Positions 20,691 through 50,929 of a DNA stretch of 64,000 nucleotides are shown one piece after another. The notes beneath the pieces are model-generated. The model ran no database searches, was not told the origin of the DNA, and saw only the letters and a program-made list of their open reading frames with translations. The DNA lies in contig CANLOV010000009.1 in the NCBI GenBank assembly GCA_947492955.1, forward strand, positions 62,001 through 126,000, read 5' to 3'. The DNA is from an uncultured Cellulophaga sp. Its GTDB lineage: Bacteria; Bacteroidota; Bacteroidia; Flavobacteriales; Flavobacteriaceae. Each line of letters opens with the position of its first letter. The first letter of the stretch is position 1. The position numbers were made by a program, and so were the translations under genes.

Positions 20691-22943
20691 TTACTTTTTT
20701 TTGAGGTAAAAAGAACTCTTTAGCCCTGAAGATGAGTTAGGTCCTACCCATAAATTAAAATCACCTTCTTCTGCGGTATTTACATTTTTATGATTTGTAA
20801 ATTTTAATTTTTCTGCTGATATTTTAAATGTAACTTCTTTAGTTTCTCCATTATTTAGATAGATATGTTCAAACCCTTTTAATTCTCTAATAGGGCGGGT
20901 AATACTACCTACAACATCTTGTGTGTAAAGCTGAACAATTTCTTTTCCAGGTCTTTTGCCTGTGTTGGTAATAGATATATTTACCATTAAGTTTTCCTTA
21001 AAATTAATGGTGTCTTTGGATATTTGTAAGTTACTATATTTAAAATCTGTATAGCCTAAGCCATAGCCAAAAGGGAATTGTGGTTTGTAACCAATATCTA
21101 AATAGTGAGAATCGTTTCCTAATGAGCTTTGCCATGCACCAACGGGAATGTCGTACATACTAACATAGTCTTCTTTATTTGCTGGTCTTCCTGTATTTTT
21201 ATGATTGTAAAAATAAGGTAGTTGTCCTGCAGCTTTTGGCCAAGATAGCGGTAATCTACCTTCGGGTTCTCTTAGCCCATAAATAATTTCTTGTAAAGCA
21301 GAACCACCCATTGTGCCAGGATGCCAAGACATTAAAATAGCATCTACGTCATTAATAATGTTCGAGATGGTAATAGGTCTACCTGCCATAATAACTAAAA
21401 CAATTGGTTTTCCTGTTTTAGCTAATTCTTTTATTAAACTTTCTTGTGCACCAGGTAAATCTATAGAAGCCCTACTATGCGCTTCTCCAGATAAAATAGC
21501 TTCCTCTCCTGCTATAAATACAATTACATCAGAATTTTTTACACTATTAATGGTTTTTTTAAATTCACTGGTAGATTGGTCTCTACTATGGGTTAGCGAA
21601 GGGATATACTTAAAATCAACATTTGCTTTTTTAAAAGCCTCTAAGGGAGTTACTGTATGTTCTTTTTCACCATCAAAAGTCCATGTGCCCATTTGATCTA
21701 ATGGAGCATTTGCTAAAGGACCTATAAGGGCTACTTTTGTGTTTTTAGATAAAGGAAGTAAATCTTTATTTTTTAATAGCACAGAACTTTTAATAGCAGC
21801 TTCTTTTGCTATGCTTAAATGTTCTTTTTTATAAAAGTTTGCTTCATTTTTTTTATCTCTATAAGGTGTTTTAAATAAGCCTAATTTTAATTTTACTCGT
21901 AAAATATTCTTTACAAATTCATTTAATTGTTGTTCAGATACTTTTCCTTCTTGTATTAATTTTTTTAAATGATTTTCATAAGTTTTACTCGTCATTTCCA
22001 TATCCATACCTGCATTGGCGGCTAATTCTCCCGCATGTTTTTCATCTTTAGCATAACCATGAGCAATCATTTCTATAACGGAATCCCAATCGCTTACCAC
22101 AAAACCATTAAATTTTAATTCATCTCTTAAAACGTCTTTTAATAAGAATTCATTTCCAGTTGCCGGAATTCCATTTATTTCATTAAAGGAAGTCATTACC
22201 GTGGCAACATCAATATCTAAAGCAGCTTTAAAAGGAGGTAAATATACATTACGTAATAAAGGTTCAGGAATTATAGTGGTATTGTAATCTCTACCACCTA
22301 TAACAGCTCCATAACCAATATAGTGTTTAGCACATGCAGCAATACTTGTAGGGTTGTTTAAAGAATCGCCCTGAAAACCTTTTATGTATGCTTTTCCTAA
22401 AACAGATGCTAAATAAGGGTCTTCTCCAGGGGATTCTGCTATTCTTCCCCAACGACTATCTCTTGCAATATCTAACATAGGAGCAAATGTCCAACGAATA
22501 CCTACTGAACTGGCTTCTATTGCAGCTACTCGTGAAGATGATTCCGCAATTTCGGTATCCCATGAAGAAGCTAAACCAATAGGAATAGGAAATATAGTTT
22601 TAAATCCATGCACCACATCTCGTGCAAAAATTAAAGGAATTTTATTAGGACTTTCTTCTACAGCTATTTTTTGAAGCTCATCAACAAATTCAACTTTCAT
22701 AACATTTAGTAATGCGCCAACTTTTCCTTGTCTTACATCTTCTTTTAACTCCTCTGATAAAGTTTTTGCTCTACTAGAGGTTCCTCGTAAATTAGTTTGT
22801 CCTATTTTGTCATCTATAGACATTGTAGATAATATACTATCAATAAATTGTTCTTGACTGTTATTACTAGTAGTAGACACATTAGTTTGAGAGCAACTAA
22901 TTAAAGTAATACCAATGATTATTATATAATATTTTTTAATCAT
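20691..22943 (-). CDS. Glycoside hydrolase family 3 beta-glucosidase-type lipoprotein
   Basis: A 750-residue lipoprotein (signal peptide ending LISC). It has a full GH3 architecture: N-terminal barrel (about 35-370), alpha/beta sandwich (about 385-600) and C-terminal fibronectin-III-like domain (about 645-745). The nucleophile Asp is in GFVVSDWDSV near residue 284. The general acid segment ILSGEAHSRASIDLPG is intact, and YPTSIAACAKHYIGYG-type substrate loops are present. Relatives cleave terminal beta-linked glucose or xylose from oligosaccharides, here probably in the periplasm or at the outer membrane. It ends the locus and follows the esterase after 18 bases. Which linkage it prefers cannot be told. 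Confidence 0.93.
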   Translation of the reverse strand: MIKKYYIIIIGITLISCSQTNVSTTSNNSQEQFIDSILSTMSIDDKIGQTNLRGTSSRAKTLSEELKEDVRQGKVGALLNVMKVEFVDELQKIAVEESPNKIPLIFARDVVHGFKTIFPIPIGLASSWDTEIAESSSRVAAIEASSVGIRWTFAPMLDIARDSRWGRIAESPGEDPYLASVLGKAYIKGFQGDSLNNPTSIAACAKHYIGYGAVIGGRDYNTTIIPEPLLRNVYLPPFKAALDIDVATVMTSFNEINGIPATGNEFLLKDVLRDELKFNGFVVSDWDSVIEMIAHGYAKDEKHAGELAANAGMDMEMTSKTYENHLKKLIQEGKVSEQQLNEFVKNILRVKLKLGLFKTPYRDKKNEANFYKKEHLSIAKEAAIKSSVLLKNKDLLPLSKNTKVALIGPLANAPLDQMGTWTFDGEKEHTVTPLEAFKKANVDFKYIPSLTHSRDQSTSEFKKTINSVKNSDVIVFIAGEEAILSGEAHSRASIDLPGAQESLIKELAKTGKPIVLVIMAGRPITISNIINDVDAILMSWHPGTMGGSALQEIIYGLREPEGRLPLSWPKAAGQLPYFYNHKNTGRPANKEDYVSMYDIPVGAWQSSLGNDSHYLDIGYKPQFPFGYGLGYTDFKYSNLQISKDTINFKENLMVNISITNTGKRPGKEIVQLYTQDVVGSITRPIRELKGFEHIYLNNGETKEVTFKISAEKLKFTNHKNVNTAEEGDFNLWVGPNSSSGLKSSFYLKKK

Positions 22944-22961: not shown

Positions 22962-23810
22962 TTATTTTCTTTTTTTTGAAAAAAGCCAGGGGATTAATTC
23001 TTCTTCATTAAAAGCTTTTTTAAAAGCAGTCCCATGATCTGTGTTTTTATACTCTGTGTATTTTACATCTGCATTGTTCTTAGACAATAATTTAAACATG
23101 GTTCTTGAGCCTTCAACAGGATTCCATTTGTCTATTTCTCCATGAAATATCCAGAAGGGAATATGTTTTATTTTTTCAATTTGACTTGGGTCAGAGTAAC
23201 CCGCCATAGGAACAGCAGCAGCAAATAAATAAGGTTTTCTTGCTGTAAACTCCCAAGTTCCAAAGCCACCCATTGATAGCCCAATAATATAGACTCTATT
23301 TTTATCTATATTTTTTTTCTTTATGAGTTCTTCTATTAATTCTAAAGTAGCCTCTCCGGATGCTGAAGGGTAATAATTCATAGTATAAGAACCATCTTTG
23401 CCTAAACCTTTAAATGGTGTTTTAGGAGAATTGCCTACCCATTTTGCCCATTCTTCATTTTCGGTTTTATCTGAGCACTGAGGCACTAAAATGTGACAAG
23501 GATATTTTGTCTGCATTTCGTCTTTTAGTAATGAATTTTTATTTATAATAATTCCTGCTTCATGGTATGTTTTGGCATCATTATCTGTTCCTCTGTCTCC
23601 TCTACCATGTAAGAAAACAATCAAAGGAATCTTTTCATTTTTTTTATTCTTAGCACTAAATAATCTATAGGGTATCTCTAATCCGTTTGTGGCAGAATAG
23701 GTGTGTTTTACCATTAAAGAATCAATAGCTAACGTATTTATTTCTTGTGCATAAGTATATAAATTTCCAAAGGAGATAATAATAAGATGAATGAATAATT
23801 TAAGTTTCAT
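22962..23810 (-). CDS. Secreted alpha/beta-hydrolase (COG4099-like esterase/peptidase)
   Basis: A 282-residue protein with a signal peptide (cleaved near YAQ, residue 21) and an alpha/beta-hydrolase fold. The oxyanion region is PLIVFLHGRGDRG. The nucleophile Ser is in YIIGLSMGGFGTWE (key part GLSMGG), the acid in FWIFHGEIDKW and the His in NTDHGTAFKKAF. Such proteins in polysaccharide loci often act as carbohydrate esterases, but relatives are also annotated as predicted peptidases, so the substrate is open. It is 18 bases upstream of the GH3 gene and in the same orientation, suggesting combined deacylation and deglycosylation. Confidence 0.85.
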   Translation of the reverse strand: MKLKLFIHLIIISFGNLYTYAQEINTLAIDSLMVKHTYSATNGLEIPYRLFSAKNKKNEKIPLIVFLHGRGDRGTDNDAKTYHEAGIIINKNSLLKDEMQTKYPCHILVPQCSDKTENEEWAKWVGNSPKTPFKGLGKDGSYTMNYYPSASGEATLELIEELIKKKNIDKNRVYIIGLSMGGFGTWEFTARKPYLFAAAVPMAGYSDPSQIEKIKHIPFWIFHGEIDKWNPVEGSRTMFKLLSKNNADVKYTEYKNTDHGTAFKKAFNEEELIPWLFSKKRK

Positions 23811-23977: not shown

Positions 23978-25234
23978 TTATTTTGAAAGTAAAGAATCTG
24001 CATAAACTGCAATAAAATGAGTCCTTACTTTTACTGATTCTAATGAGTCTTCTGAGCTTTGTATTTTCATTGTTTTAGAAGAGACTAATGGCATATGGCA
24101 TTCAATACAGTTATTGTTAACAGTATTAGTTACTTCTTTTTCTGCAGTACAAATATTTTTGTGGTTTTCATTAGAATTATGGCAGCTTAAGCATTTTTTA
24201 TTAAATGAGGTATAATTGTTTCTTTGGTTTTTATGGGGGTTATGGCATGTGGTACAATCCATAGTAGTACTTTTTTTAAAGCATTTGCTGGCAGAAAGTA
24301 ATCCATATTGATTGCCATGTACATCTAATTTTTTGATATCTTCTTTAGTGTAATCTGGTGTAGAAAATAAGTTTAAAGTATCGCCAATTATAAAAGAAAA
24401 TGGCGATTTATTTCCTTTTTTTCTTAATCCAGAATGGCATAATGCACAGGCATCTAATTTTTGTTGTTTAGACAAATTGCGATACTTTATCGCGAATTTT
24501 CCAATTGTGTCTTCTGGGTTTTTTTTATGGAAATTTACATGTTTAAGAGAAGGTCCGTGGCAACGTTCACAATCTATTCCGTATATTATTTTGGATTTGT
24601 AATACACATTTTTTTTTCCAAAACTAGTGCTGTTTTTTGCGTGTGTAACATGGCATTCTAAACATCTTTGTTGAACAGGCCTATTAGATGCTAACCTGTT
24701 TGGAGGATAACCAGGACTGTTAATCCAGCTTTTAGTTGGAGCAAAATAAGAAACCTGAATTTGATATAGCGAGCTATCTTGCCATTTTAAATACGATTGT
24801 CCTTTGGTTCCAGAACCGATAATGGCATCGAATCGAGAAGAATTTATCAGAGAATCATTAGACTTTATAAAAACATCTTGGTAAAGAGAATCATTTCTAA
24901 GATTCATTTTAAATGCAATAGCATCGTTTAAATGGAATGTATTCTCTCCTTTTTTAAAATTACCTTTAACATTCTCTAGATTAGCCTCAGCAGATGATTT
25001 ATAATGTGCAGTTTTAATATGTGAATTATAAATATCTAAATGACATTCTGCACAAACTTTAGATCCGGAAAAACCACTTCCATTATTGTGTATTGTTATG
25101 GGTTTTATAGGGATGTAATCACTTTTAATAATAGAATTTGAAAAAAAGATAAATATAAATAAGCATGCAATGAGCAAAATAATTAAAGCACCTAAGTTTT
25201 TTTTATCTTTTAATTTTTGAACCTTTTTTTTCAT
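23978..25234 (-). CDS. Membrane-anchored multihaem cytochrome c (seven CXXCH motifs)
   Basis: A 418-residue protein with one N-terminal membrane helix (about residues 14-33) and then seven CXXCH haem-binding motifs: CAECH, CLECH, CERCH, CALCH, CTTCH, CLSCH and CIECH. Extra His residues in several contexts (CHVTH, CHNPH) could be distal ligands. The N-terminal motif context GSKVCAECHLDIYNSHIKTAH resembles the cytochrome c-554/tetrahaem-like families. It would lie in the periplasm, anchored to the inner membrane or as a signal-anchored protein. Its start directly abuts the stop of the ASPIC/UnbV gene, so the two are almost certainly co-translated. A cytochrome inside a polysaccharide locus is unusual. 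Electron transfer to or from an oxidative sugar or surface reaction is a guess. Confidence 0.9.
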   Translation of the reverse strand: MKKKVQKLKDKKNLGALIILLIACLFIFIFFSNSIIKSDYIPIKPITIHNNGSGFSGSKVCAECHLDIYNSHIKTAHYKSSAEANLENVKGNFKKGENTFHLNDAIAFKMNLRNDSLYQDVFIKSNDSLINSSRFDAIIGSGTKGQSYLKWQDSSLYQIQVSYFAPTKSWINSPGYPPNRLASNRPVQQRCLECHVTHAKNSTSFGKKNVYYKSKIIYGIDCERCHGPSLKHVNFHKKNPEDTIGKFAIKYRNLSKQQKLDACALCHSGLRKKGNKSPFSFIIGDTLNLFSTPDYTKEDIKKLDVHGNQYGLLSASKCFKKSTTMDCTTCHNPHKNQRNNYTSFNKKCLSCHNSNENHKNICTAEKEVTNTVNNNCIECHMPLVSSKTMKIQSSEDSLESVKVRTHFIAVYADSLLSK

Positions 25235-28200
25235 TTATAAAGATGAATTTATCTTAATAAATTGTGGGTAATCATTATTTTTAGTAGCAATAATATGTTC
25301 TTGCTCATTTATACGAATTGATGCTACATCTTTTACATCTCCTCTAATATATAAGTTACATTCTTTATTGGAAATTGGTGTAAAATTACCTTTACCATCA
25401 CCTTTTAGAAAATTACCTATACTAGAATCATTTCTGGGTGTTTCTATTTCCGAAGCATATAAATTTCCAGCGATTAAAATATCTTTAAATCCATCATTAT
25501 CTATATCACTTGCAATTATTTTATTTACTGATGATAATTGAGCTTTATTAGGGAGTTTACTTATTTTAAATTTATTATTGCCTAAGTTCTCTATATAACT
25601 ACTAGCAAAGGTTTGTGCTTTATAATGTATTTCGGCATTTTTTAATTCTTCTTTTCCATATACTTCGGTTACATCTGCTATGGCAAAAGAGTTATAATTT
25701 TCAAACTTTTTACTTAAAGATGGTATTTGTTCAGATGAGCAAGATTTACCACGTACGGGGAATAATTTTCCAAAATTATAGTAGCTTAGTACAATGTCTT
25801 TTCTATTATTTTTATCAAAATCATCGGCATATACTTCAAAAGGTTCTTCTGAAGTGGCTTTGTATTTATAATTTAAACCAAGGTTACCTATAATATAATC
25901 TATATCTCCATCATTATCAAAATCATCTTGAGTAATACTCGACCACCATCCATTGGTGTTTTCTAAACCAATATTTTTGGTTACGTTTTTAAATTTTCCA
26001 GCTGTATTGCTGTAAAATAAGATAGGAGTCCATTCACCAACAATTATTAAATCTAAGGTTCCATTTTTATCAAAATCTGTCCAGGTGGCATCCGTAATCA
26101 TACCTAACTTTTCAAAACCTGTTGTTACTTCTGATGTAACATCTTTAAAAATACCATTAGTATTATTTAAGATATAGCTTTTTGTAGGCCATGGGTATTT
26201 ACCAGCAATTAATCTGCCGCCAACAAATAAATCTAAATCACCATCATTATCATAATCGCCTGCTTTAACTCTAGAGCCACTAGTTGTAATTTTTGGTAAG
26301 TTATTTACTCCTTTTGTAAATTTACCATTACCATTATTTATATAAAGACGATCTTGAAAATAGAAGGTGTTTTTTTGTTTTTCATTTCCTCCACTAACAA
26401 CATATAAATCTAAATCGCCATCACTATCAGCATCAAAAAATAAAGCACTCATGTCTTCTTTATCTTTATCAACTTCCCAAACAGTCTCATTTGATTTTTT
26501 AAATTTCCCTATTGAATTTTGTATGTATAATGCTCCGGCTTGTTTAGATGCACCACCTATATAAAAATCGTCTAAGCCATCGCCATTTACATCTGCAACT
26601 GCTATTCCAGAACCAAGCATAGATGTTTTGTGAGGCAGCAAAGGTTCATGAAAATAATCGTCATAATCATTTTCTGTATGCTTAAAGCCTACTTCTAAAG
26701 AGTCTGCAGGTATTGTTTTAAAAAGAGGAAATTTGTTAGGTTGTTTATTACTTACTTTAGTTGCTGATGAAAATTCTACTGTTATATTTTGGTTAGCTTT
26801 TATGTTTTTTAGTGTAGATTCATTACCATTTGGCCAAATAACTTTTAATAACGATATATCTGTAGCTTTTTCTATACCAAAGTGTAATGTTGGGGCAACT
26901 GATGACTGAAAACCTCTTGTTAGGGTAAGTTCATTATATTGTTCTATATTATTAGCAGTAAGGTAAACTTTTGCTCCAAGACCATTTTTGTTATTGCTGG
27001 GACCTTTTAGTGTTACTTGTAAATAATTATTATTATCTAAATTATTGTTTTTATAAACAGATGCTTCTTGGTCAATATTATTTATAACATAATCTAAGTC
27101 TCCATCATTATCTAAATCGGCATAAACGGCGCCATTAGAGAAAGTTTTTTCTTCCCATCCCCATTCTGTAACCATATTTTTAAACGTATAATCTTTGGTG
27201 TTTTTATAAATATAATTTGATACTTTTTCTGATGGTATCTGTTGTATCTCTTCCGCAGATAGTTTTACACCTCCAAAATGATTTCTAGATTTTAGTTTAT
27301 TAAAGTAATCTCTATTGTTAATATCTCTCCTTGTACCATTAGATATGGTTAAATCTTTCCAACCATCATTATCTAAATCGGCAAAGAGGATAGACCAACT
27401 CCAATCTGTAGTAGAAATACCTGCTAGTCTTGATACTTCGCTAAAAACAGGATTTCCATTAGCATCATTGCCTCTGTTGAGTTGAAGGCAGTTTTGCATA
27501 TATTGGTGGTTTAAGCCCGCTTTTACCATTTTTGTAAATCCAATAGGATTCATACTAGCCATATTTGCTTTTGATCTTCTATTGTCTTCAGGTGTCATAT
27601 CTACCTGAGCAATATCTAAAAGTTTATCATTATTATAATCGGCAATATCTGCTCCCATACCATATTGAGCAGTGTGGTTAACGGCTTCTTTTGCAATTTC
27701 AGTAAACGTTCCGTTTTTATTATTTATATATAAATAATCAGCAGAATCAAAATCATTAGAAACATAAATATCTTTCCAACCATCCTCATTAAAATCCCCA
27801 GAAGTAGCACTTAATGATAAGCCAAAATTTAAAATACCAGCCTGTATGGTAACATCGGTAAAGGTGCCATCTCCATTATTTCTATATAAAATATCTGATT
27901 CTTCTATTTTTGGATTTTTAGATTTATAGTAATATAATTCTACAGGACTTTTAAAAGGGGTAGGAGGGTAATTAGCTAAATATAAATCTAAATCGCCATC
28001 ATTATCATAATCAAAAAAAGTACTTTGTGTAGTATGTCCATTATTATCTATGCCATAATCTTTAGCATTTTCTGTAAACGTATTATCTCCATTATTTATA
28101 TATAGTAGATTGTTTCTGTTATTCCCTTTTCCGGAAACACTTACATAAATATCTAAATAGTTATCGTTATTAATATCTACCATAGTAGTACCTGTAACCC

Positions 28201-28525
28201 ATCTATCATCCCCAGCTATGTTTGCTTTATCTGTAATATCTTCAAACTTAAAATTACCTTTATTTAGGTATAGGGTATTAGATTTCATATTAGCAGTAAA
28301 GAATAAATCTACTAAGCCATCATTGTTAATGTCACCGGCAGAAATGCCTCCTCCCATATACATGTATGGGTAATTAAAGTAGTTAAGGGAATCTGTTTCT
28401 TTAATATCATTAGAAAAAGTAATACCAGTTTCATTTGCTGGTAGTATACTAAATTGCTTCTTATCTTGTTTTTTGCAGGATAGTAATAAGAGTAAGCTAA
28501 AGCTAATGAGGTAAATAATCTTCAT
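25235..28525 (-). CDS. FG-GAP/VCBS repeat lipoprotein with ASPIC/UnbV domain
   Basis: A 1,096-residue lipoprotein with signal peptide MKIIYLISFSLLLLLSC. The frame extends 14 codons further, but that extension has no signal features, so the ATG at 28525 is chosen. It is built of many Asp-rich calcium-loop repeats of the type DINNDGLVDLFF and DYDNDGDLDLYL, forming two beta-propeller-like halves. An ASPIC/UnbV domain (about residues 497-580, with TRGFQSSVAPTLHFG and VIWPNG) lies between them. The family's function is unknown; it recurs next to SusC/SusD genes in Bacteroidota. A hairpin terminator separates it from susD, while the cytochrome gene abuts its 3' end. A homologue of the same layout is at 50930-54352 in the second locus. 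Confidence 0.92.
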   Translation of the reverse strand: MKIIYLISFSLLLLLSCKKQDKKQFSILPANETGITFSNDIKETDSLNYFNYPYMYMGGGISAGDINNDGLVDLFFTANMKSNTLYLNKGNFKFEDITDKANIAGDDRWVTGTTMVDINNDNYLDIYVSVSGKGNNRNNLLYINNGDNTFTENAKDYGIDNNGHTTQSTFFDYDNDGDLDLYLANYPPTPFKSPVELYYYKSKNPKIEESDILYRNNGDGTFTDVTIQAGILNFGLSLSATSGDFNEDGWKDIYVSNDFDSADYLYINNKNGTFTEIAKEAVNHTAQYGMGADIADYNNDKLLDIAQVDMTPEDNRRSKANMASMNPIGFTKMVKAGLNHQYMQNCLQLNRGNDANGNPVFSEVSRLAGISTTDWSWSILFADLDNDGWKDLTISNGTRRDINNRDYFNKLKSRNHFGGVKLSAEEIQQIPSEKVSNYIYKNTKDYTFKNMVTEWGWEEKTFSNGAVYADLDNDGDLDYVINNIDQEASVYKNNNLDNNNYLQVTLKGPSNNKNGLGAKVYLTANNIEQYNELTLTRGFQSSVAPTLHFGIEKATDISLLKVIWPNGNESTLKNIKANQNITVEFSSATKVSNKQPNKFPLFKTIPADSLEVGFKHTENDYDDYFHEPLLPHKTSMLGSGIAVADVNGDGLDDFYIGGASKQAGALYIQNSIGKFKKSNETVWEVDKDKEDMSALFFDADSDGDLDLYVVSGGNEKQKNTFYFQDRLYINNGNGKFTKGVNNLPKITTSGSRVKAGDYDNDGDLDLFVGGRLIAGKYPWPTKSYILNNTNGIFKDVTSEVTTGFEKLGMITDATWTDFDKNGTLDLIIVGEWTPILFYSNTAGKFKNVTKNIGLENTNGWWSSITQDDFDNDGDIDYIIGNLGLNYKYKATSEEPFEVYADDFDKNNRKDIVLSYYNFGKLFPVRGKSCSSEQIPSLSKKFENYNSFAIADVTEVYGKEELKNAEIHYKAQTFASSYIENLGNNKFKISKLPNKAQLSSVNKIIASDIDNDGFKDILIAGNLYASEIETPRNDSSIGNFLKGDGKGNFTPISNKECNLYIRGDVKDVASIRINEQEHIIATKNNDYPQFIKINSSL

Positions 28526-28540
28526 TATAATAAATTTAAG

Positions 28541-28573
28541 AAAAAAGAGGCTTTGAATTGTATCCAAAGCCTC
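28541..28573 (-). terminator. Hairpin terminator/attenuator between susD and the ASPIC/UnbV gene
   Basis: On the minus strand, GAGGCTTTG (28573-28565) and CAAAGCCTC (28555-28547) form a perfect 9-base stem with a 9-base loop, followed by six T residues. It is located 30 bases after the susD stop and 16 before the next start, so it would reduce rather than abolish read-through into the downstream genes. Confidence 0.85.
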
Positions 28574-28603: not shown

Positions 28604-30169
28604 TTAAGGATTAAGATAAGCGGAACTTTGTATTAGGTTAGGGTTAGCACTTAATGCAGAACTTGGTATTGGGTAAACATCGCGCCCAGGAGGCATATCT
28701 AAATCATAATTATCTTTTACAAATTTAATTGCTTCACCACTTCTTCTGATAACACCCCAAAGAGAGAATTCACCAGCAAGTTCTAGCCTATATTCCTGTA
28801 AAATATCGTCCATTGTAACTGTTTTTACTGGTGCAGTACCTGCCCAAGCTCTATTTCTTACTCTATCAAAAGCAGCTTGCGCTTTTGCCATTTGTCCGTC
28901 TTTAAGAGCGGCCTCAGCTAAACTAAGTAAAGCTCCTCCATAACGTAACCATATATGGCCTTGACCACCAAAAAGAACAGGGCTTCCCCAACCTTTAATT
29001 TTAGGGTCTCTCCACGATTTTATAGCCCAATATCCAGATCTTGTATCTGGTGATCCTCCAGTCCAAGGTGCATCTACTGTACCTACAGTATTAATATCTA
29101 TTCCATCATAATCAATAATATTTATTAATGGGTCTGTGTGTTCTTCTCCAGGAGCTATAACTGTCGCGGCTCTTCTTGTATCTCCAGGTTCATAAGCATC
29201 ATATAATTCTTTTGTAGGAATGCCTGTAAAACCACCACCGCCAGTTATATCTGTTGGCATAGCGAATAATTGTAAAATATTTACTTCATCATTTCTAGAC
29301 CAAGCTAAATCTCCATTAGCAGCCCATTGAATTTCAAATATAGATTCTTTACCATTTGGATTATCTACAGCATGTATATCAAGAAAGTTTTCTTCTAAAT
29401 CAAGAACAGGACTATCTTCTAATGCTTCAAAAGCAGTTACGGCATCACCGTATTGACCAAGCCACATTTGTGCATTACCCAAAACAGTATATGCTGTTGC
29501 TTTTGATACTCTCCCTTTGTCTGCATCGTATGTCCAAGGAAGTTTTTCAATAGCTTCAGTTGCATCTGTTACAATCTGTTGAAAAATTAAATCCTGAGGG
29601 TCTTTTGCCTTAAATGGATCATCTTCACTAGTAAGCATTAATGGAACATCACCATAAACTTCTGCTAAGTATTGATAAGAAATACATCTTAAAGTTAAAA
29701 CTTCACCAATTAAACGATTTCCTAAGTCTGTACTAATACTTTCGTTTTCTACAGCAACTCTTAAATTTTCTAACGCTATGTTTGCTCTACCAATTTGTCT
29801 GTAATTATTAGCCCAAATTTTTGTAGAAACATCACTTGTAGAAGGGTCTTGGTTAAAATTTAAGTAGGAACTGGTTGCTGGGTTTTCATTATTTAAAAAA
29901 TCTAAGCCAGTACTATTGGCCCATCTATGAATTCCCTTTACATTGTATTCATTTGGTAACCCTGGATCTGATTGTGAATCATTTTGAAAACCATCATATA
30001 CACCAGTGACAGCTGCTAATGCCGTATCATCTGAACCAAAAACAACTTCACTAGTTAAATCTCTGTTGTTAGTATCAACCAAAAAATCTTCGGAGCATCC
30101 TACCATAGTACTCAATGCAACAGCACTACATACTCCTATTTTTTTAATTATATTTATTTTTTTACTCAT
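28604..30169 (-). CDS. SusD/RagB family glycan-binding lipoprotein
   Basis: A 521-residue outer-membrane lipoprotein (signal peptide ending TMVGC). It has SusD features: FLVDTNNRDLTSEVVFGSDD near the start, the tetratricopeptide-like helices with ALRCISYQYLAEVYGDVPL-type sequence (about 145-175), and a C-terminal half containing LAEAALKDGQMAKAQAAFDRVRNRA and YRLELAGEFSLWGVIRR. SusD lies over the SusC barrel as a lid and captures oligosaccharide. The partner susC gene ends 10 bases upstream. The ligand cannot be predicted from sequence by eye. Confidence 0.94.
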   Translation of the reverse strand: MSKKINIIKKIGVCSAVALSTMVGCSEDFLVDTNNRDLTSEVVFGSDDTALAAVTGVYDGFQNDSQSDPGLPNEYNVKGIHRWANSTGLDFLNNENPATSSYLNFNQDPSTSDVSTKIWANNYRQIGRANIALENLRVAVENESISTDLGNRLIGEVLTLRCISYQYLAEVYGDVPLMLTSEDDPFKAKDPQDLIFQQIVTDATEAIEKLPWTYDADKGRVSKATAYTVLGNAQMWLGQYGDAVTAFEALEDSPVLDLEENFLDIHAVDNPNGKESIFEIQWAANGDLAWSRNDEVNILQLFAMPTDITGGGGFTGIPTKELYDAYEPGDTRRAATVIAPGEEHTDPLINIIDYDGIDINTVGTVDAPWTGGSPDTRSGYWAIKSWRDPKIKGWGSPVLFGGQGHIWLRYGGALLSLAEAALKDGQMAKAQAAFDRVRNRAWAGTAPVKTVTMDDILQEYRLELAGEFSLWGVIRRSGEAIKFVKDNYDLDMPPGRDVYPIPSSALSANPNLIQSSAYLNP

Positions 30170-30179
30170 AACAATTTTT

Positions 30180-33100
30180 TTAAAATTTTACATTAAGTCC
30201 TAAAGTAAATGTTTTAGATAATGGATATGCTCCTGCATCTATACCTCTAGTGGTAACACTACTATTGCCATTAATATCAGCGTTTTGACCAATTTCTGGG
30301 TCTGATCCAGAATAGTTTGTAATTGTAAATAGGTTTTGAGCACTTGCATATATTCTTAGATTGCGTAAACCAAGTTTTTCAACAGTATTGTATGGTAGAT
30401 TATATCCAATATTTAAATTTCTTAATCTAAAGAATGAACCATCTTCTACAAAATAGCTAGATGCTCTATTGTTCTGTATATCTCCATCATCGATAATAGC
30501 CCTTGAATAAGTATTTGTAGAACCTTCACCAGTCCAACGGTTATTAAAATATTCGATACTTACATTAGAAAAAGAAGCATCATTACCATATCCAGAAGCA
30601 CTTTCTAAATCGCGTTTTACAAGATTTAATATTTCTCCTCCAAACGAGCCGTAGAAGTTTAATCCTAAATCAAAGTTTTTATATGAAAAATTTAAATTTA
30701 AACTTCCATAAAAATCAGGTACAGGACTACCAATAGTAGTTCTATCTTCTCCATTAATTATACCATCATCATTTAAATCTTTGAATTTACGGTCACCAGG
30801 TGCAGGTGTACCACTTGGTCTTGTAGGAGCTGCATCTATTTCTGCTTGATTTTGAAAAATTCCGTCTGCAACAAAACCATAGAAAGAACCTACTTGGCCA
30901 CCTTCTTGAGCTCTAGTAATATCGTACCAGAAACCAGATTCGTCAAAAGTATCTAAGAAGGTATTAGTAAATACAACTTCTTTAGATAGATTGTCAATTT
31001 TTGTAATTTCATTATCAGTTATAGTAATGTTTGCATTAATATCATATGTGAAATCACCATCATTTTCTCTAACTCCTACTAAGAACTCGAATCCTTTGTT
31101 TATCATGGTTCCACCATTCTGAGGTTGTGTAGTAAACCCTGTTTGGGCTGGTACGGTTTGCTGAAATAAGAAATTTCCAGATTCTCTATTGAAATAATCA
31201 GCAGTAAAATATATTTTACCATCTAATAGTTCTCCTTCTACACCAATGTTTGTTTGTGTTTGTGTTTCCCAACCTAAATTGTTATTGGCTAATACAAGTG
31301 GAGCTAAACCTAAAGCACTGTTTGTGCTACCATCAAAACTATAGTTAGTATCATTAGTACCTCCTTGACCTGTAAAAAGTGAAAGGTAACCAAAAGAAGG
31401 AATACCAGCAAAGTTTCCTGTTTCTCCCCAACTAGCTCTAAGTTTTAAAATGTTAAACACACTATCATCCATAAAATTTTCTTCATCTATATTCCATCCG
31501 GCAGCAAATGATGGAAATACTCCCCATAAATTTTGGGAACTAAATACATCACCAACACCATCTCTTCTTATGGTACCTGTTAAATAGTATTTACTATCAA
31601 AATTGTAATTTAATCTTGCAAATGTACTAGCCAGTGTTCTTCTGTCTGAAAAACCAGTAGTGTTACGTATATCATTTGCAGCAGCAATACTTCTTATATT
31701 ATTATTTAAAAAACCAACTCCTGTTGCACCAGAAAATTTTCTATATCTTCTTTGTGCAGAAACACCACCTAAAATATCAATAGTGTGTTTTTCGTTAAAT
31801 GTTCTTTTGTATTTTAATAAGTATTCTGCTATCCATTCGTTATTTACGGATTGGTTTGTGGTATATACTGCATTATCTCTAAGATCAACATTACCATTAC
31901 TACGGTAATATGTTGGTTGAAAATTTTCATTTGCATTATTATCTACTCTGGCACCTACTTTTAATTGTGTAGAAAGTCCACCATATATATCCCATTCGGC
32001 ATCAATATTAGCTAAAACAGTGTTGGTTACATTATCAAGATCATTTTCTAATGCTCCTGCAACCCAGTTTTTACCATCACGGAATGCTTCGCCAGTTACA
32101 TCAGGAACAGCTCCAAAGTTTCCATTTGCATCAACAGGAAGATTGGTAGGGTTTGTGCCTCCTCTAAGGTTTGTTTCACCTGCTGGCGCTAAATGAGGTA
32201 TTGTAGAGAATAAATTTAATAATGCTCCACGACCCGTTCCTAATGGTTGAAAATTTTGAGAAGTAATATATTTTATATTACTTTTTAAACGAATTTTATC
32301 TGTAATATCAAAACTAGCATTGAACCCTATGTCATATCTTTTGTACTTAGATCCAATTAGTGTTCCTTCGTCATCATAAGCACCAGTAGTAAATGCAAAT
32401 CTAGAATTTTCACCACCACCTCTTATGTTTAAAGTTGTACTTTTAGTAACGGAAGTGTTAAAAACTTCATCTTGCCAATTTATATTTCTTAAAGAACCTG
32501 GGTTACTCCAACCACTATAAGGAATAGCAGTTCCTGCAACAGTGTCGTCTGTACTGCTGCTTAGTTCTGTGGCTAAGCTTGCAAACTGATTTACATCTAA
32601 AACATCTAATTCTTTAGGTTTAGAACGGAAGCTTAAAAAAGAATTTACTTCTACCTGAACTTTACCTTTTGTTCCTTGTTTCGTTTGAATAATTACAACA
32701 CCATTACTTGCTCTTACTCCATATAGTGCTGTAGCAGAAGCATCTTTTAATACAGAAATAGATTCTATTGAGTTAGGGTTTATAAAATTAATATTCTCTG
32801 TAGGGAATCCATCTACAACATATAAAGGAGTAGTACTACCAAAAGAACCCACACCACGAATGTTTACAGATACAGAAGATCCTGGCGCACCAGAATTAGA
32901 AGTTATCTGAACACCACTTGTTTTTCCTTGTAAGGCTTGATCCACAGTTGCAGCTGGGAAATTATTAAGTTCATCTGCGCCAATAACTGCTACAGCACCC
33001 GTTAAATCTTTTTTCTTGGCTGTACCATAAGCTACTACAATTACTTCATCTAAAGCAGCAGCATCTTCATCCATTTGAACGTTGATTTGTTTTTTACTAC

Positions 33101-33488
33101 CAATAGTAATTTCTTTTGTTTTATAGCCAATGGAGCTAAATACTAAAATAGCATTTGCATTAGAAACGTTAATTGTATAGTTACCATCAAAATCTGATGC
33201 TGTACCGTTTGAGGTGTTTTTTTCTACTACGGTAACACCAGGAAGTGGTGTTCCATCGGCATCTGTTATTATTCCTGATATTGATGTTTGAACATCAATA
33301 AAGTTATTAGTTTCAAGAGGTTTTATATCCTCTGTAAATTTATTTGGTTCATTATTTTTCGAATTCATAGCGGTATTTGCTTGAATCGAAAAACACGAAA
33401 TAAACAATGAAAGAATTGTGACTTTCATTGTTAAGTTAAAATTAAGTGAATTGAGCCGTTTTGACACAAAACTTTTACTGTTTTTCAT
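30180..33488 (-). CDS. SusC/RagA family TonB-dependent outer-membrane transporter
   Basis: A 1,102-residue protein. It has a signal peptide preceded by a ~20-residue extension (an ATG at codon 21, MKVTILSLF, may be the true start) and a carboxypeptidase-like regulatory domain (about 68-150, SISGIITDADGTPLPGVTVV). Next comes the TonB-box-like DEVIVVAYGTAKKKDLTGAV, a plug domain with VDGFPTENINFINPNSIESI (key part NPNSIESISVLKDASATALY), and the barrel ending FTLGLNVKF. It imports oligosaccharides with energy from TonB. It has no STN signalling domain: only about 25 hydrophilic residues lie between the signal peptide and the regulatory domain. That matters because an ECF sigma gene and an anti-sigma-like gene lie just upstream. 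Confidence 0.95.
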   Translation of the reverse strand: MKNSKSFVSKRLNSLNFNLTMKVTILSLFISCFSIQANTAMNSKNNEPNKFTEDIKPLETNNFIDVQTSISGIITDADGTPLPGVTVVEKNTSNGTASDFDGNYTINVSNANAILVFSSIGYKTKEITIGSKKQINVQMDEDAAALDEVIVVAYGTAKKKDLTGAVAVIGADELNNFPAATVDQALQGKTSGVQITSNSGAPGSSVSVNIRGVGSFGSTTPLYVVDGFPTENINFINPNSIESISVLKDASATALYGVRASNGVVIIQTKQGTKGKVQVEVNSFLSFRSKPKELDVLDVNQFASLATELSSSTDDTVAGTAIPYSGWSNPGSLRNINWQDEVFNTSVTKSTTLNIRGGGENSRFAFTTGAYDDEGTLIGSKYKRYDIGFNASFDITDKIRLKSNIKYITSQNFQPLGTGRGALLNLFSTIPHLAPAGETNLRGGTNPTNLPVDANGNFGAVPDVTGEAFRDGKNWVAGALENDLDNVTNTVLANIDAEWDIYGGLSTQLKVGARVDNNANENFQPTYYRSNGNVDLRDNAVYTTNQSVNNEWIAEYLLKYKRTFNEKHTIDILGGVSAQRRYRKFSGATGVGFLNNNIRSIAAANDIRNTTGFSDRRTLASTFARLNYNFDSKYYLTGTIRRDGVGDVFSSQNLWGVFPSFAAGWNIDEENFMDDSVFNILKLRASWGETGNFAGIPSFGYLSLFTGQGGTNDTNYSFDGSTNSALGLAPLVLANNNLGWETQTQTNIGVEGELLDGKIYFTADYFNRESGNFLFQQTVPAQTGFTTQPQNGGTMINKGFEFLVGVRENDGDFTYDINANITITDNEITKIDNLSKEVVFTNTFLDTFDESGFWYDITRAQEGGQVGSFYGFVADGIFQNQAEIDAAPTRPSGTPAPGDRKFKDLNDDGIINGEDRTTIGSPVPDFYGSLNLNFSYKNFDLGLNFYGSFGGEILNLVKRDLESASGYGNDASFSNVSIEYFNNRWTGEGSTNTYSRAIIDDGDIQNNRASSYFVEDGSFFRLRNLNIGYNLPYNTVEKLGLRNLRIYASAQNLFTITNYSGSDPEIGQNADINGNSSVTTRGIDAGAYPLSKTFTLGLNVKF

Positions 33489-33972: not shown

Positions 33973-34488
33973 CTATAAATGCGTATTTCGTAATTCTTTA
34001 CGTAATATTTTATAGGCTTTTTTTAAATGAAATTTCACTGTGTTTATTGATATTCCTAATGTATCAGCTGCATTTTGGTACTTAACTCCTTCTAATACGC
34101 ATAGTTCAAAAACCTTTTTACTTTGTTTTGGTAAAACTTTTATTGCTTTTTGTATCTCTGCTTTATATTCAATATCAATTAAATAATCTTCGTGTGAAGG
34201 TGCTAATGATGCTAATGCATAATCTTTAATCTTTTCTGTTTTTTTTGTTCGTTGTATTGTTTTTAGGCTTGTATTGCGTACCGCTATACTTATGTAATTT
34301 TTTAAATCTAAAATTTCAGTATCTCTTTTTCTGTTTAAAACTTTTACAAAAACATCCTGAACCATATCTTCTGCTTCAATCATATTTTCTATATAGCTAT
34401 AGGCAATTAAACACCATTCTTTATAGTGTTTCATAAACATAGCTTCGATTTGAAGTTGTGGACTTATTTCTAATGTTTTATTTAGCAT
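33973..34488 (-). CDS. ECF-type RNA polymerase sigma factor (FecI/SusC-associated)
   Basis: A 171-residue sigma factor with region 2 (about residues 18-85, AEDMVQDVFVKVLNRKRD) and region 4 (about 112-165, LPKQSKKVFELCVLEGVKYQ and INTVKFHLKKAYKILRKEL). It lacks region 3, as ECF factors do. It lies between the glycosidase genes and the anti-sigma-like gene upstream of susC/susD, the arrangement of sigma factors that activate neighbouring SusC genes. It presumably switches on susC-susD. How it is held inactive is unclear, because the neighbouring anti-sigma is only a stub. Confidence 0.93.
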   Translation of the reverse strand: MLNKTLEISPQLQIEAMFMKHYKEWCLIAYSYIENMIEAEDMVQDVFVKVLNRKRDTEILDLKNYISIAVRNTSLKTIQRTKKTEKIKDYALASLAPSHEDYLIDIEYKAEIQKAIKVLPKQSKKVFELCVLEGVKYQNAADTLGISINTVKFHLKKAYKILRKELRNTHL

Positions 34489-34536: not shown

Positions 34537-36564
34537 TTACTTATTCATTTTTTTTAACAAGCATATCCAATCTTGCTGGTTAATATTATCTTTATTTGAT
34601 GGGGGATTCCCTATCGATACTATATCGCCTCCATTTATTTTTTCTTTTGATCCTTTTTGTAATTCACCTCCTGTAATTGGGTTGTACCATTGAACACTAT
34701 ATTTACCTTTAGCTCCTTTTAAATTAATAGTGTAACTACCAGAATTAGGTAAGTAAATAGCATACACTGAACCTATTTTGCGTAAACAGTAAGCTTTAGG
34801 ATGGTTAATTAATGTGTGCTCAGGACTCATCTCCCAAAAGGGAATATGTTTTTGAAAAAATGTAGTAGCGTTATTTGTTAATTCCCATAGATTATTTCGT
34901 TGCCTCCAATCTTCAGAATTAAGATCATTATGAGGGTGCTTAGCTCCAAAATACCATTCTACACCTGCGCCACCTGATAGTAATGTTCCCCATAAAGCAT
35001 ATTGCCTTAATGTATTATGATGCGGGTCAACATTATCAGGTAAAGCGGCAGTATGCCACATGCCTATTTCATCCATAGTAATTAGCCAATCTTGACCTTT
35101 TTCTTTTGATTTTATTCTCCACTCTTTTACTATACCTGGAGCTAACTCTCTTTTATCTTGTTGTAATGACAAACCATCTAAATACTGAAACCCTAATATG
35201 GAATCTAATATTTTACTTCTTAAAGGGTCATGAGCGTGCGTATGTAAAAGAACAGGGTGTTTGTACGGGTCTGTTTCTTTTAAGAACTTAGCCATTGCTT
35301 TTCGTTGTTGATTATTTTGACCTATTGGCGACCAAGAAGCAGGTCCGTTTTCTTCTCCAAGATTCCAATTAAGAGCTAAATGGTGACCAAAACGAGCAAT
35401 TAATTCTCTAAAGTATAATTGCCGTAGCGTTCCCGTATCACCATTATCGAGCATAGTTTCATTTTCTGTTTCTTGCAATACCATATGCAATAAAATGCCT
35501 TTGGTTTGCATATGTTCAAAAACTATATCCCATTGTTCTAACTTGCTCACATCAAAACGGGAAAAATCTTTTGGCGAGGTATATGGCCAAACATCTTTAC
35601 CGTCTCCCAAAATGTTCATAGTTAAAAAGTATGAAGAATTAACGCCTTTAGATGCTAGGTAATTGATTCCGCCAATAAGAGATTTTCCTTTGCCGTTTTT
35701 CCAATTTGGATCACCTATATTCCAATCTTTAAGATGTGTAGTGTATTTGTGTATTTCTTTATTAGTACTGGCCTCTCCATCTCTATTAGAGGCTTGCATC
35801 CTGTATGTTGCGTCAAAATCCTGATATCCAAGTAAGTTTTCTGGGCTGTTAGTTCCTCCTTTTATCCAGAATTTATCTGAATTCTGAAATTTATAAAAAC
35901 CTTTATGAGTAGTTAATCTACCATTTGCTCTAAAATCTGGGGCTTCTTTATCAGAATTTATAACAATGAATTTGCCTTTGGAATTGGATAGTTTTATAGC
36001 TTCTCCAATTTCTAAATTATCTTCTAAGGCTATACTATCTTTGTGATGTAGTGTTGCACTGTAACTCCATTCTCCTTTGAAATCTGGGGTAAATTTTACT
36101 TTCCATATATTTCCTTTGTCTGCACTTGTTTCAGCAGCATTGCCATCAGCAGCATAAAACCCTCTAATTATATATTTTGTTTTTTTGTGTTTAAATTCTA
36201 CACTTAAGCGATAATTTAAAAATGGATTATCAATATCAGTTTCTGAGGTTTCGGGTCCTTTAAACGGAAGTGTTATTGTATGCCATTGCTTGTAAATAGG
36301 TAAAGTGCTTACCGAATTTTGATTTGTATTGTTTGTTTTGGACAATAGCTTTAATCTTTTTGCAGAGATGAGCTCTGGTCCGTTACCTGTATTGCTAACA
36401 CCAGAGGTAGTATATGTGTAGTCATTAATAATAGTAAAACTAGAAGCATGTTTTAATGAGTTCCAATTTTCCCATTTAGCAGGGCTTGTAGTGTTACAAT
36501 TAGCACATGCTATATAACTAAAGAGAATAAAAAAACTATTTATGTGTTTAAAAAATTGCTTCAT
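34537..36564 (-). CDS. DUF5060-containing putative glycoside hydrolase
   Basis: A 675-residue exported protein. The signal sequence ends in a Cys-containing stretch, IACANCN, so it may be a lipoprotein. An N-terminal DUF5060 immunoglobulin-like domain (about residues 85-190, with RGFYAADGNAAETSADKGNI and FTPDFKGEWSYSATL) precedes a barrel domain (about 215-570). The C-terminal beta domain is of the putative collagen-binding type (about 585-670). Candidate catalytic acids are the Glu pair in NWNLGEENGPAS and the Asp/Glu in LITMDEIGMWH, in the places expected for a clan-A barrel. This is inference from position. The function is an unassigned glycosidase acting on the locus substrate. It starts 3 bases after the GH5 gene stops. 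Confidence 0.85.
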   Translation of the reverse strand: MKQFFKHINSFFILFSYIACANCNTTSPAKWENWNSLKHASSFTIINDYTYTTSGVSNTGNGPELISAKRLKLLSKTNNTNQNSVSTLPIYKQWHTITLPFKGPETSETDIDNPFLNYRLSVEFKHKKTKYIIRGFYAADGNAAETSADKGNIWKVKFTPDFKGEWSYSATLHHKDSIALEDNLEIGEAIKLSNSKGKFIVINSDKEAPDFRANGRLTTHKGFYKFQNSDKFWIKGGTNSPENLLGYQDFDATYRMQASNRDGEASTNKEIHKYTTHLKDWNIGDPNWKNGKGKSLIGGINYLASKGVNSSYFLTMNILGDGKDVWPYTSPKDFSRFDVSKLEQWDIVFEHMQTKGILLHMVLQETENETMLDNGDTGTLRQLYFRELIARFGHHLALNWNLGEENGPASWSPIGQNNQQRKAMAKFLKETDPYKHPVLLHTHAHDPLRSKILDSILGFQYLDGLSLQQDKRELAPGIVKEWRIKSKEKGQDWLITMDEIGMWHTAALPDNVDPHHNTLRQYALWGTLLSGGAGVEWYFGAKHPHNDLNSEDWRQRNNLWELTNNATTFFQKHIPFWEMSPEHTLINHPKAYCLRKIGSVYAIYLPNSGSYTINLKGAKGKYSVQWYNPITGGELQKGSKEKINGGDIVSIGNPPSNKDNINQQDWICLLKKMNK

Positions 36565-36567
36565 AAT

Positions 36568-37692
36568 TTAATTGCTCCCAGATACGATTTTAATAAGGGT
36601 TTTGTTTTCTTTTCCGTCTGTGTGTATTAATCCAAAATCATCACTTTTATAATTCCAATTTGCGTATCCAATACCAGTTTCATTAAAAAGTGTTACTATA
36701 TCTTTATACCAATTAATGCTTTCATTATTTGGAGCATTTGATATAATGCCAAATTCTCCACAGTATAAAGGCAAGTCTAAATCTTTGGCTTTTTGTATGG
36801 GTTTTTGCCACATTTCTAATAATATATCTTTATTGAATTTTACATTTACCCATTTTTGCACTTCTGTTTGGATATTTGGGGGTAATTTCTCGTACTCCTG
36901 CTGTGTTAGAATTATGCCTGGGTAGTGTGTAGCGCCATTGTAGTTTTTTAAGTTAGTCCATTTCGCAGCGTAATGAGTTAATAAAAAAGGCTTGTAAAAA
37001 TGAAAACTTAAGAGTATGTTTTTATCATTAGCAGGAACTTTTAATGCATCAAAAGTTTCTACAGACTGCCATCTGTTTGATCCAATAACAATGGTGCGCT
37101 CTTTTTCTAGTTCTCTAATAGTAGTAAAAGCTTTTAAAAGTAATTTGTTCCATGATTCGTTATCATCTGCTACAGCCTCGTTCATTAATTCATAAGCCAC
37201 TAAACTGTTTGGGTGTTTACTTAGAGATTTAGAAAGATCTTTCCATAAATTAAAAAAAGTCTCTTGTGCTTTTGGATCTGTCCATAAAGGTTTTTCTTTA
37301 GCATTAAAATGGTGAGACCTCAGAATATGTAAATCAATGATTATTTTAAGATTGTTTTTAGAACACCAGTTAATGCAATTTTGCATTAGTTGAAATGCTT
37401 CTGAGTTTTTGTTTCCGTTCTCATCCCACATCTGTTCTTCATCAATGGGTAATCTAATATGGTCAAATCCCATATTTGCAATTTTAATGACATCGTCCTC
37501 AGTAAAAAACAGTCTTCTTTCTTCTCCTCTTTTATCGCTTTGCGATAGCCAATGAGCAATATTAGTGCCCTTTTTTATTTCAAATTTTTCTTGATCTTTT
37601 ACTTTATTAGAGCAACTAGTAAAAAGATGTATTATACTAAATAGAACTAGTAGAACCGTTTTAATATGTATCGTTTTAATTCTTGGTTGCAT
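36568..37692 (-). CDS. Glycoside hydrolase family 5 lipoprotein
   Basis: A 374-residue lipoprotein (signal ending LFTSC) with a GH5-type barrel. GTNIAHWLSQ begins the domain, GFDHIRLPIDEEQMW follows, and the conserved Arg and His are present. The acid/base Glu is in YELMNEAVAD (near residue 169) and the nucleophile Glu in LYCGEFGI (near residue 311). GH5 enzymes cleave beta-glucans, mannans or related backbones, and the subfamily cannot be told by eye. It is the first gene after a 404-base gap, and GH5 and DUF5060 are co-transcribed with a 3-base spacing. Confidence 0.92.
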   Translation of the reverse strand: MQPRIKTIHIKTVLLVLFSIIHLFTSCSNKVKDQEKFEIKKGTNIAHWLSQSDKRGEERRLFFTEDDVIKIANMGFDHIRLPIDEEQMWDENGNKNSEAFQLMQNCINWCSKNNLKIIIDLHILRSHHFNAKEKPLWTDPKAQETFFNLWKDLSKSLSKHPNSLVAYELMNEAVADDNESWNKLLLKAFTTIRELEKERTIVIGSNRWQSVETFDALKVPANDKNILLSFHFYKPFLLTHYAAKWTNLKNYNGATHYPGIILTQQEYEKLPPNIQTEVQKWVNVKFNKDILLEMWQKPIQKAKDLDLPLYCGEFGIISNAPNNESINWYKDIVTLFNETGIGYANWNYKSDDFGLIHTDGKENKTLIKIVSGSN

Positions 37693-50845: not shown

Positions 50846-50879
50846 AATTAGTTAAGAATTAATATTAATTTTAGTTTAA

Positions 50880-50914
50880 AAATAGGGGGCATGTACTTTA
50901 TATGCTCCCTATTT
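50880..50914 (+). terminator. Stem-loop between susD and the second ASPIC/UnbV gene
   Basis: AAATAGGGGGCAT pairs with ATGCTCCCTATTT with one G-T pair and a 9-base loop. The T-run after it is weak (AATTTATT), so it may act as an attenuator or mRNA end-protector. It begins 34 bases after the susD stop and ends 15 before the next start, in the same relative place as the hairpin in the first locus. Confidence 0.7.
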
Positions 50915-50929
50915 AATTTATTATAGAAA

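Follow-up and report, generated by a model that had tools for sequence, protein, structure and literature searches.

A seven-haem cytochrome encoded beside an ASPIC/UnbV lipoprotein in a Cellulophaga polysaccharide locus and its recurrent linkage to SusC/SusD genes

The stretch of DNA considered here (the window, 64,000 nucleotides from an uncultured Cellulophaga sp., contig CANLOV010000009.1, positions 62,001 to 126,000) encodes on its reverse strand a seven-haem cytochrome (CYT), immediately downstream of an ASPIC/UnbV lipoprotein. Both genes lie in a polysaccharide utilization locus (PUL), recognizable from a SusC-like protein above the TIGR04056 cut-off, a SusD_RagB protein and glycoside hydrolases of families GH3 and GH5. 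The original prediction, made from the letters of the window, had described the start codon of CYT as directly abutting the ASPIC stop codon, in the tightest junction of the locus, and had noted seven CXXCH motifs. Both observations were borne out: at the junction TTTATAAATGAAA the TAA stop is followed by the ATG with a gap of 0, whereas the other tight junctions measure 3 nt (GH5/DUF5060), 10 nt (SusC/SusD) and 18 nt (esterase/GH3), and exactly seven motifs were counted in the 418-aa open reading frame (ORF). The accompanying description of the pair as fused by position is correct as regards adjacency, but the genes encode two separate proteins, and the gap amounts to 8 to 9 nt in five syntenic relatives.

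CYT belongs to the Pfam family Cytochrome_C554 (PF13435), with 44.3 bits (cut-off 20.8), and falls short of the NCBIfam models of the decahaem cytochromes DmsE and GSU2203 (49.3 and 55.1 bits, with cut-offs of 192.2 and 325, respectively). The catalytic haem of NrfA is described as bound by a CXXCK motif (PMC6703420); CYT has neither this motif, all seven of its motifs being CXXCH, nor the five haems of an NrfA nitrite reductase. Since c-type haems require export, CYT must be an exported protein, and its hydrophobic N terminus would anchor it in either the inner or the outer membrane. In 43 of the 57 close homologues defined below, inspection by eye revealed a lipoprotein-like N terminus, i.e., a hydrophobic stretch ending in Cys, which 8 of them lack, and in the lineage of the window (6/57) the Cys is kept inside a longer hydrophobic stretch. 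CYT had no match in plasmids at 1e-20 and none in PHROGs.

A structural model of CYT was obtained with AlphaFold2 from 24 homologues, with a mean predicted local distance difference test score (pLDDT) of 79 for the best model and of 59 to 75 for the other four. Foldseek returned OcwA, the nonahaem cell-surface terminal reductase of Thermincola potens (6i5b), in first place (E 9.6e-9) and the octahaem sulfite reductase MccA (4rkm) next (E 8e-3). Furthermore, VIA-align placed OcwA (Z 17.7; root-mean-square deviation [rmsd] 3.6 over 302 aligned residues, 20% identity) ahead of the Carboxydothermus undecahaem cytochrome (Z 12.6) and MccA (Z 9.8; rmsd 5.1 over 279 residues), with unrelated rows at 6.6 or lower. 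The model of CYT matches a reductase-type cytochrome of the NrfA superfamily and, besides the haem-core fold, presents the extra beta-sheet domain described as common to OcwA and MccA (PMC6703420), with strands 99 to 172 located between haems 1 and 2. The haem 1-4 order is shared with OcwA and the CXXCHMP motif with both OcwA and MccA, as seen in motif alignments from a profile search of solved structures that left out the long rows. CYT differs from OcwA in the number of haems (seven, not nine), in that no second active-site haem was recognized, in its setting within a glycan-uptake locus and in the C-terminal three-helix bundle typical of this branch, which is missing from the model: there is no helix of at least 10 residues after position 353, and the chain ends in strands 383 to 404. 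Compared to MccA, CYT has one haem fewer and does not conserve the Cys that follows CHMP; because this Cys has no counterpart, CYT is unlikely to reduce sulfite in the manner of MccA. Nitrosomonas cytochrome c554 (PF13435; 1bvb) resembles CYT in the sequence pattern of haems 1-4 but carries four haems and functions in ammonia oxidation.

Outside the haem motifs, five His and one Cys are invariant in 57/57 close homologues (H77, H232, H306, H334, H406 and C318), whereas among 27 distant homologues position 77 holds His or Met and position 318 Cys or Met, H306 has nearly disappeared, and H232, H334 and H406 are retained. With five invariant His plus C318, ligand candidates of the His/Cys kind are available for six haems, which leaves one of the seven without; the invariant Met381 is a possible ligand too. 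The pattern fits one His/Cys haem, ligated by C318, beside an open haem 2. Alternatively, C318 could bind a metal; in MccA, a Cys serves as a copper ligand. By comparison with OcwA, MccA and c554, in which haem 2 is described as the active site (PMC6703420), haem 2 of CYT is probably likewise open, that is, five-coordinate.

The partner of CYT is a member of the ASPIC/UnbV FG-GAP proteins (PF07593, 72.8 bits; FG-GAP, 248.9 bits; ten FG-GAP_3 stretches), with the lipobox-like sequence LLLLSCKK at its N terminus. In its model (mean pLDDT 74), repeated beta strands occur on both sides of the ASPIC beta region, an arrangement that we read as two propellers, and the best fold match is murine CRTAC1 (9etn; E 8.4e-26). 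While the likeness to CRTAC1 and ASPIC/UnbV proteins consists in PF07593, FG-GAP and this fold match, the protein of the window differs in being a lipoprotein, in having FG-GAP repeats that flank the ASPIC domain and in lying in a SusC/SusD (SusCD) locus. The genome of the window contains eight ASPIC genes.

A hairpin resembling an intrinsic terminator separates SusD from ASPIC (Table 1), and a similar hairpin followed by a T-run occurs at this junction in 5/5 syntenic relatives (L010, L011, L012, L013 and L068). At the ASPIC-CYT junctions of the window and of these relatives, where the gap is 0 or 8 to 9 nt, no such hairpin was found. Since a hairpin precedes ASPIC and none was found before CYT, the two genes probably form a bicistron with weaker transcription than susCD. 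Other SusD-ASPIC junctions with a hairpin are those of L021, L076 and L082 and, in weak form, L075, and none was seen at the examined junctions of L015, L074, L079, L085 and L087; the hairpin may be a recurring means of reducing ASPIC expression. The second SusD-ASPIC junction of the window (49046-54352) likewise carries a terminator-like hairpin.

Table 1. Features of the cytochrome gene and of the surrounding polysaccharide utilization locus (positions in the window)
Feature	Position	Strand	Basis
Seven-haem membrane-anchored cytochrome (CYT)	23978..25234	-	418 aa; seven CXXCH, PF13435, OcwA fold match
CYT N-terminal hydrophobic anchor, residues 3-32	25139..25228	-	model helix 3-32 (model residues 1-9 of low confidence); homologue N termini
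Haem 1 motif CAECH (61-65)	25040..25054	-	sequence
Beta-sheet domain between haem 1 and haem 2, residues about 81-172	24719..24994	-	DSSP on model
Haem 2 motif CLECH (191-195), predicted open (catalytic) haem	24650..24664	-	homology, inference
Haem 3 motif CERCH (222-226)	24557..24571	-	sequence
Haem 4 motif CALCH (263-267)	24434..24448	-	sequence
Conserved non-motif Cys 318, possible sulphur ligand	24281..24283	-	homologue alignment
Haem 5 motif CTTCH (327-331)	24242..24256	-	sequence
Haem 6 motif CLSCH (348-352)	24179..24193	-	sequence
Haem 7 motif CIECH (376-380), then MP	24095..24109	-	sequence
ASPIC/UnbV FG-GAP lipoprotein, 1096 aa from ATG, read as double beta-propeller	25235..28525	-	Pfam, model, fold match
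Intrinsic-terminator-like hairpin between SusD and ASPIC	28547..28573	-	12-bp stem, then six T; z -3.74
SusD-like lipoprotein	28604..30169	-	PF07980, 66.4 bits, cut-off 23.1
SusC-like TonB-dependent transporter	30180..33488	-	TIGR04056, 886.5 bits, cut-off 368
Sigma-factor-like gene (extracytoplasmic function type by sequence, without family scan)	33973..34488	-	kept in five syntenic relatives
DUF5060/Collagen_bind_2 protein, possible glycoside hydrolase	34537..36564	-	Pfam
GH5 cellulase-family protein	36568..37692	-	Pfam
Alpha/beta-hydrolase esterase	22962..23810	-	Pfam
GH3 beta-glucosidase, BglX-like, 690 bits, cut-off 666	20691..22943	-	
Hybrid two-component regulator, upstream of locus	38097..42257	-	sensor repeats, histidine kinase, receiver, AraC-type end; domains read from sequence, without family scan

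The genome of the window gave one CYT match at 0.01. Homologues were found at 1e-10 in 76/397 genomes of the family and at 1e-30 in 52/395 genomes of the phylum sample, and a scan of named genomes yielded 28 CYT loci. A close form, with at least 37% identity and frames of about 390 to 440 aa, is present in 26 of the 76 family genomes, that of the window included, while the remaining family matches belong to a form with 24 to 30% identity and mostly 670 to 810 aa. The two other genomes of the genus of the window in the family sample (G203 and G370) had no match at 1e-10. Longer multihaem relatives from Flavobacteriaceae, Rhodothermales, Planctomycetota and Acidobacteria share the seven-haem core with 21 to 30% identity but are mostly 600 to 800 aa long, are seldom located in SusCD loci and contain tetratricopeptide repeats (TPR) in the first three scanned (L026 and two of L030). 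The relative of 670 to 810 aa is widespread in Flavobacteriaceae; among 13 of its loci (L094 to L106), SusCD genes were found near one (L104) and ASPIC near none.

For the close form, gene context was analyzed in 57 non-redundant loci with profile scores above 400, a set that leaves out L067, L072, L078 and L088, which are second copies of L010, L014, L015 and L018, respectively, and L116, in which no ORF has at least five motifs. According to profile labels within eight ORFs of the cytochrome, both SusC/SusD and ASPIC are present in 28 loci, SusC/SusD only in 8, ASPIC only in 5 and neither in 16, which brings SusC/SusD to 36/57 and ASPIC to 33/57; L119 and L123, whose SusCD labels rest on a 287-aa protein, were counted as neither. 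Sequence clusters gave comparable numbers (SusC 35, SusD 34 and ASPIC 31). The four loci L010 to L013, two of which are from Flavivirga, keep the series SusC-SusD-ASPIC-cytochrome-esterase-GH3, and L068 keeps SusC-SusD-ASPIC-cytochrome-GH3. Across the set, gene order varies, with ASPIC before the cytochrome, the cytochrome before SusC-SusD-ASPIC or before ASPIC, and convergent arrangements, the gaps being often small.

SusD loci were compared in 11 genomes, that of the window plus 10 chosen from the 25 others in the family that carry a close homologue. An ASPIC gene was present no more than 11 kb away at 9/9 SusD loci that have a cytochrome within 11 kb, compared to 46/153 other SusD loci (Fisher p 3.8e-5, a value that is generous because related genomes are not independent). 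This comparison used 150/158 SusD matches among the matches listed, six of the 150 being below the Pfam cut-off. In the same genomes, 9/11 cytochromes are near ASPIC, where about 0.5 at most would be expected, and 9/98 ASPIC genes are near a cytochrome. Moreover, in a quick tree of 63 ASPIC proteins (30 linked to the cytochrome and 33 unlinked from five genomes; some branches are long), the linked ones occupy about eight separate places, and 10 changes between the linked and unlinked states are needed, at least 8 of them forced by well supported branches, against a mean of 21 after shuffling; the simpler interpretation is that the linkage was gained repeatedly. These comparisons support the view that the cytochrome and SusCD/ASPIC loci are associated more often than chance would predict and that the pair is widespread. 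Restriction of the pair to a single strain, which would have told against the original prediction, was not observed, since it recurs in five syntenic relatives, in about eight ASPIC lineages and in planctomycetes.

As for the latter, at least 18/149 genomes from the phylum of a Rubripirellula locus matched at 1e-40, with at least 25 matches, when eight candidates per genome were scored. An ASPIC ORF is found in the 1.5-kb flank of 7/25 of these matches, upstream on the same strand in 4, downstream in 1 and on the other strand in 2. Among the eight genomes reached through distant loci (G773 to G780), ASPIC occurs within 11 kb of the cytochrome matches in G778 (Rubripirellula) and G779 (Planctomycetales), and none was found within this distance in the planctomycete Gimesia (G780), in an acidobacterial genome (G777) or in G773 to G776. 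In L129, a locus of the planctomycete sample, the ASPIC ORF comes directly after the cytochrome ORF, the gap being zero if the first possible start is taken; this is the junction of the window in reverse gene order.

The cytochrome can also exist without ASPIC, because 6/8 cytochrome-bearing genomes of a Flavobacterium-like genus (g128) have no ASPIC gene; ASPIC as an obligate partner was consequently rejected, and the notion of an ASPIC-cytochrome complex as a necessary unit had to be abandoned. We take g128 as Flavobacterium because the Flavobacterium shii locus L022 shares its context and clade. Within this genus, the presence of the cytochrome does not track that of ASPIC, which occurs in 2/8 genomes with the cytochrome and in 6/9 without it (no match at 1e-30); ASPIC is present in all of seven further cytochrome genomes from other genera. 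In ten loci, nine of them from this genus (L022 included), the cytochrome is located beside a recJ-like gene and a major facilitator superfamily (MFS) gene, apart from SusCD. Furthermore, L014 and L070 lie behind dnaE, and L089 and L090 lie beside typA and yidC.

Additional redox and sugar-oxidation genes accompany the cytochrome in part of the loci. In L010 to L013, genes for a GntP-family permease and for a kinase and a 6-phosphogluconate dehydrogenase lie within the same locus. The kinase domain (SKI/AAA_18), which we read as a gluconokinase, is fused to the dehydrogenase in three of these loci and split from it in L010. In L113, from another family, the permease and kinase/dehydrogenase genes are convergent to the cytochrome (the labels come from Pfam for L011 and L113 and from phmmer for the others). 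Gluconate is the likely substrate of the permease, though not the sole possible one because GntP is said to import galacturonate in one study of marine Bacteroidetes (PMC5306329). In L068 and in the window, these permease and kinase/dehydrogenase genes are lacking locally. In 2/57 loci (L074 and L076), genes for a GMC oxidoreductase and a Gluconate_2-dh3 small subunit precede the cytochrome and SusC-SusD-ASPIC, all on the same strand, with 950 nt between GMC and cytochrome in L074 and 130 nt between small subunit and cytochrome in L076.

Other neighbours are PAP2-type genes in six loci (L017, L107, L115, L121, L124 and L126), with weak similarity to vanadium chloroperoxidases in L017 and L107 and with ASPIC-labelled genes in 5/6; flavin amine oxidase and monohaem cytochrome c genes, which four related loci (L016, L082, L085 and L087) have in convergent orientation to the cytochrome; DUF7133 with a cytochrome c in one locus; and planctomycete-type cytochrome genes in one locus. 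The locus of the window has no PAP2-type, flavin amine oxidase, DUF7133 or planctomycete-type cytochrome neighbours. The original prediction had also proposed redox chemistry as a theme shared with the second locus of the window through its FAD_oxidored protein (56158-58437). This candidate was discarded: no export signal was seen by eye in the protein, whose FAD site begins at residue 21 and whose N terminus is charged, and no homologue at 1e-6 was found in the other 56 cytochrome neighbourhoods.

On these grounds, we suggest that CYT is a seven-haem c-type cytochrome of the NrfA superfamily, anchored in a membrane and located outside the cytoplasm, with OcwA and MccA as nearest solved relatives. 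Six of its haems are probably arranged for electron transfer, and the remaining one, haem 2, is probably open to a small ligand. The protein would be made together with the ASPIC lipoprotein from genes that lie after a terminator, which would keep their expression below that of SusCD. Its electrons would be taken from the extracytoplasmic oxidation of sugars released by the locus, e.g., of an aldose to an aldonate by a dehydrogenase, with the respiratory chain, or a small acceptor at haem 2, as their destination. As a whole this is the best explanation we can offer, and we hold it tentatively, at somewhat less than an even chance. Its two parts deserve separate judgment: that CYT is an accessory redox subunit of SusC/SusD glycan loci appears likely, whereas its service as an outlet for sugar oxidation is possible but doubtful.

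Several observations weigh against this explanation. The close homologues with neither SusCD nor ASPIC nearby are 16/57, and the change count of the ASPIC tree fits repeated loss as well as repeated gain. The nearest solved relatives of the modelled fold are reductases and, to our knowledge, the cytochrome subunits of FAD-dependent dehydrogenases are not of the CYT type. With regard to the draining of electrons from an oxidized sugar, already envisaged in the original prediction, the permease and 6-phosphogluconate dehydrogenase genes and the GMC/Gluconate_2-dh3 pair of some related loci fit the idea, but the locus of the window is without them: no ORF of the window has a homologue (phmmer, 1e-6) of GMC, Gluconate_2-dh3, GntP or 6-phosphogluconate dehydrogenase, and an FAD sugar-dehydrogenase complex composed of GMC, small subunit and cytochrome is absent from it. 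Besides, the permease/dehydrogenase genes, seen in two lineages, and the GMC pair, seen in two genomes, may stand beside the cytochrome by chance.

The main rival explanation sees in CYT a stand-alone reductase or detoxifier, with haem 2 reducing peroxide, nitrite, hydroxylamine, nitric oxide or an extracellular acceptor; it would ride with PULs by serving or protecting particle-living cells, without touching the glycan pathway. The closest folds being those of reductases, and OcwA being described as reducing nitrite and as both reducing and oxidizing hydroxylamine (PMC6703420), speak in its favor, as do the loci with recJ-like and MFS genes, the g128 genomes devoid of ASPIC and the PAP2-type neighbours. 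By itself, this explanation leaves the SusCD-ASPIC linkage in about eight ASPIC lineages unaccounted for, and its sulfite-reducing variant meets the missing Cys after CHMP; we judge it unlikely, though worth serious attention.

Clearly more improbable is the donation of electrons to an oxidative glycan enzyme akin to a lytic polysaccharide monooxygenase (LPMO), as proposed for Cbp2D of Cellvibrio, although the encoding of the cytochrome with SusCD and hydrolase genes would suit it. Cbp2D and Cbp2E of Cellvibrio japonicus are a precedent for redox proteins in glycan breakdown, in that a c-type cytochrome domain is likewise tied to polysaccharide breakdown and the c-type X183 domain of Cbp2D is described as able to initiate Lpmo10B reduction; they differ from CYT in having one cytochrome domain in a CBM2 protein, in being LPMO-linked and in belonging to another phylum (PMC12542752). 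No copper monooxygenase was recognized among the Pfam-scanned neighbours, which are part of all neighbours, and the hydrolases vary from locus to locus. Just as improbable, in our view, is that a mobile PUL acquired the cytochrome as a functionally unconnected hitch-hiker: its absence at 1e-10 from G203 and G370 and its occurrence apart from PULs agree with such a history, but the linkage to about eight separate ASPIC lineages, with varied gene order and often small gaps, and the ASPIC neighbours in planctomycete genomes do not.

If the cytochrome is indeed an accessory redox subunit and an outlet for sugar oxidation, a broader and rather unlikely extension can be considered, namely, that "respiring" polysaccharide loci exist. 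These would be SusCD/ASPIC glycan-capture systems with their own seven-haem wire of the NrfA superfamily, where sugars become oxidized to aldonates at the uptake site, still outside the cytoplasm, electrons leave via the cytochrome, a GntP-type permease and a gluconokinase/6-phosphogluconate dehydrogenase route take in the aldonate, and the same core has been recruited beside ASPIC in Bacteroidota and Planctomycetota. In the open-access literature, no paper on this pairing of the cytochrome with SusCD/ASPIC appeared among the matches listed, as judged by title and start of the abstract, subscription papers being outside the scope; "UnbV" and "cytochrome" both occur in the text of PMC3174227.

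In the usual picture of PULs, glycans are captured, cleaved and imported, and electrons enter only once sugars reach the cytoplasm. The present data hint at some bacteria in which electron transfer outside the cell interior is coupled to complex-sugar capture. If true, an extracytoplasmic redox step would be added to marine glycan use, surface proteins of the ASPIC/CRTAC1 type would gain a testable context, and the OcwA/MccA superfamily would reach beyond the respiration of minerals and sulfur to include glycan loci.

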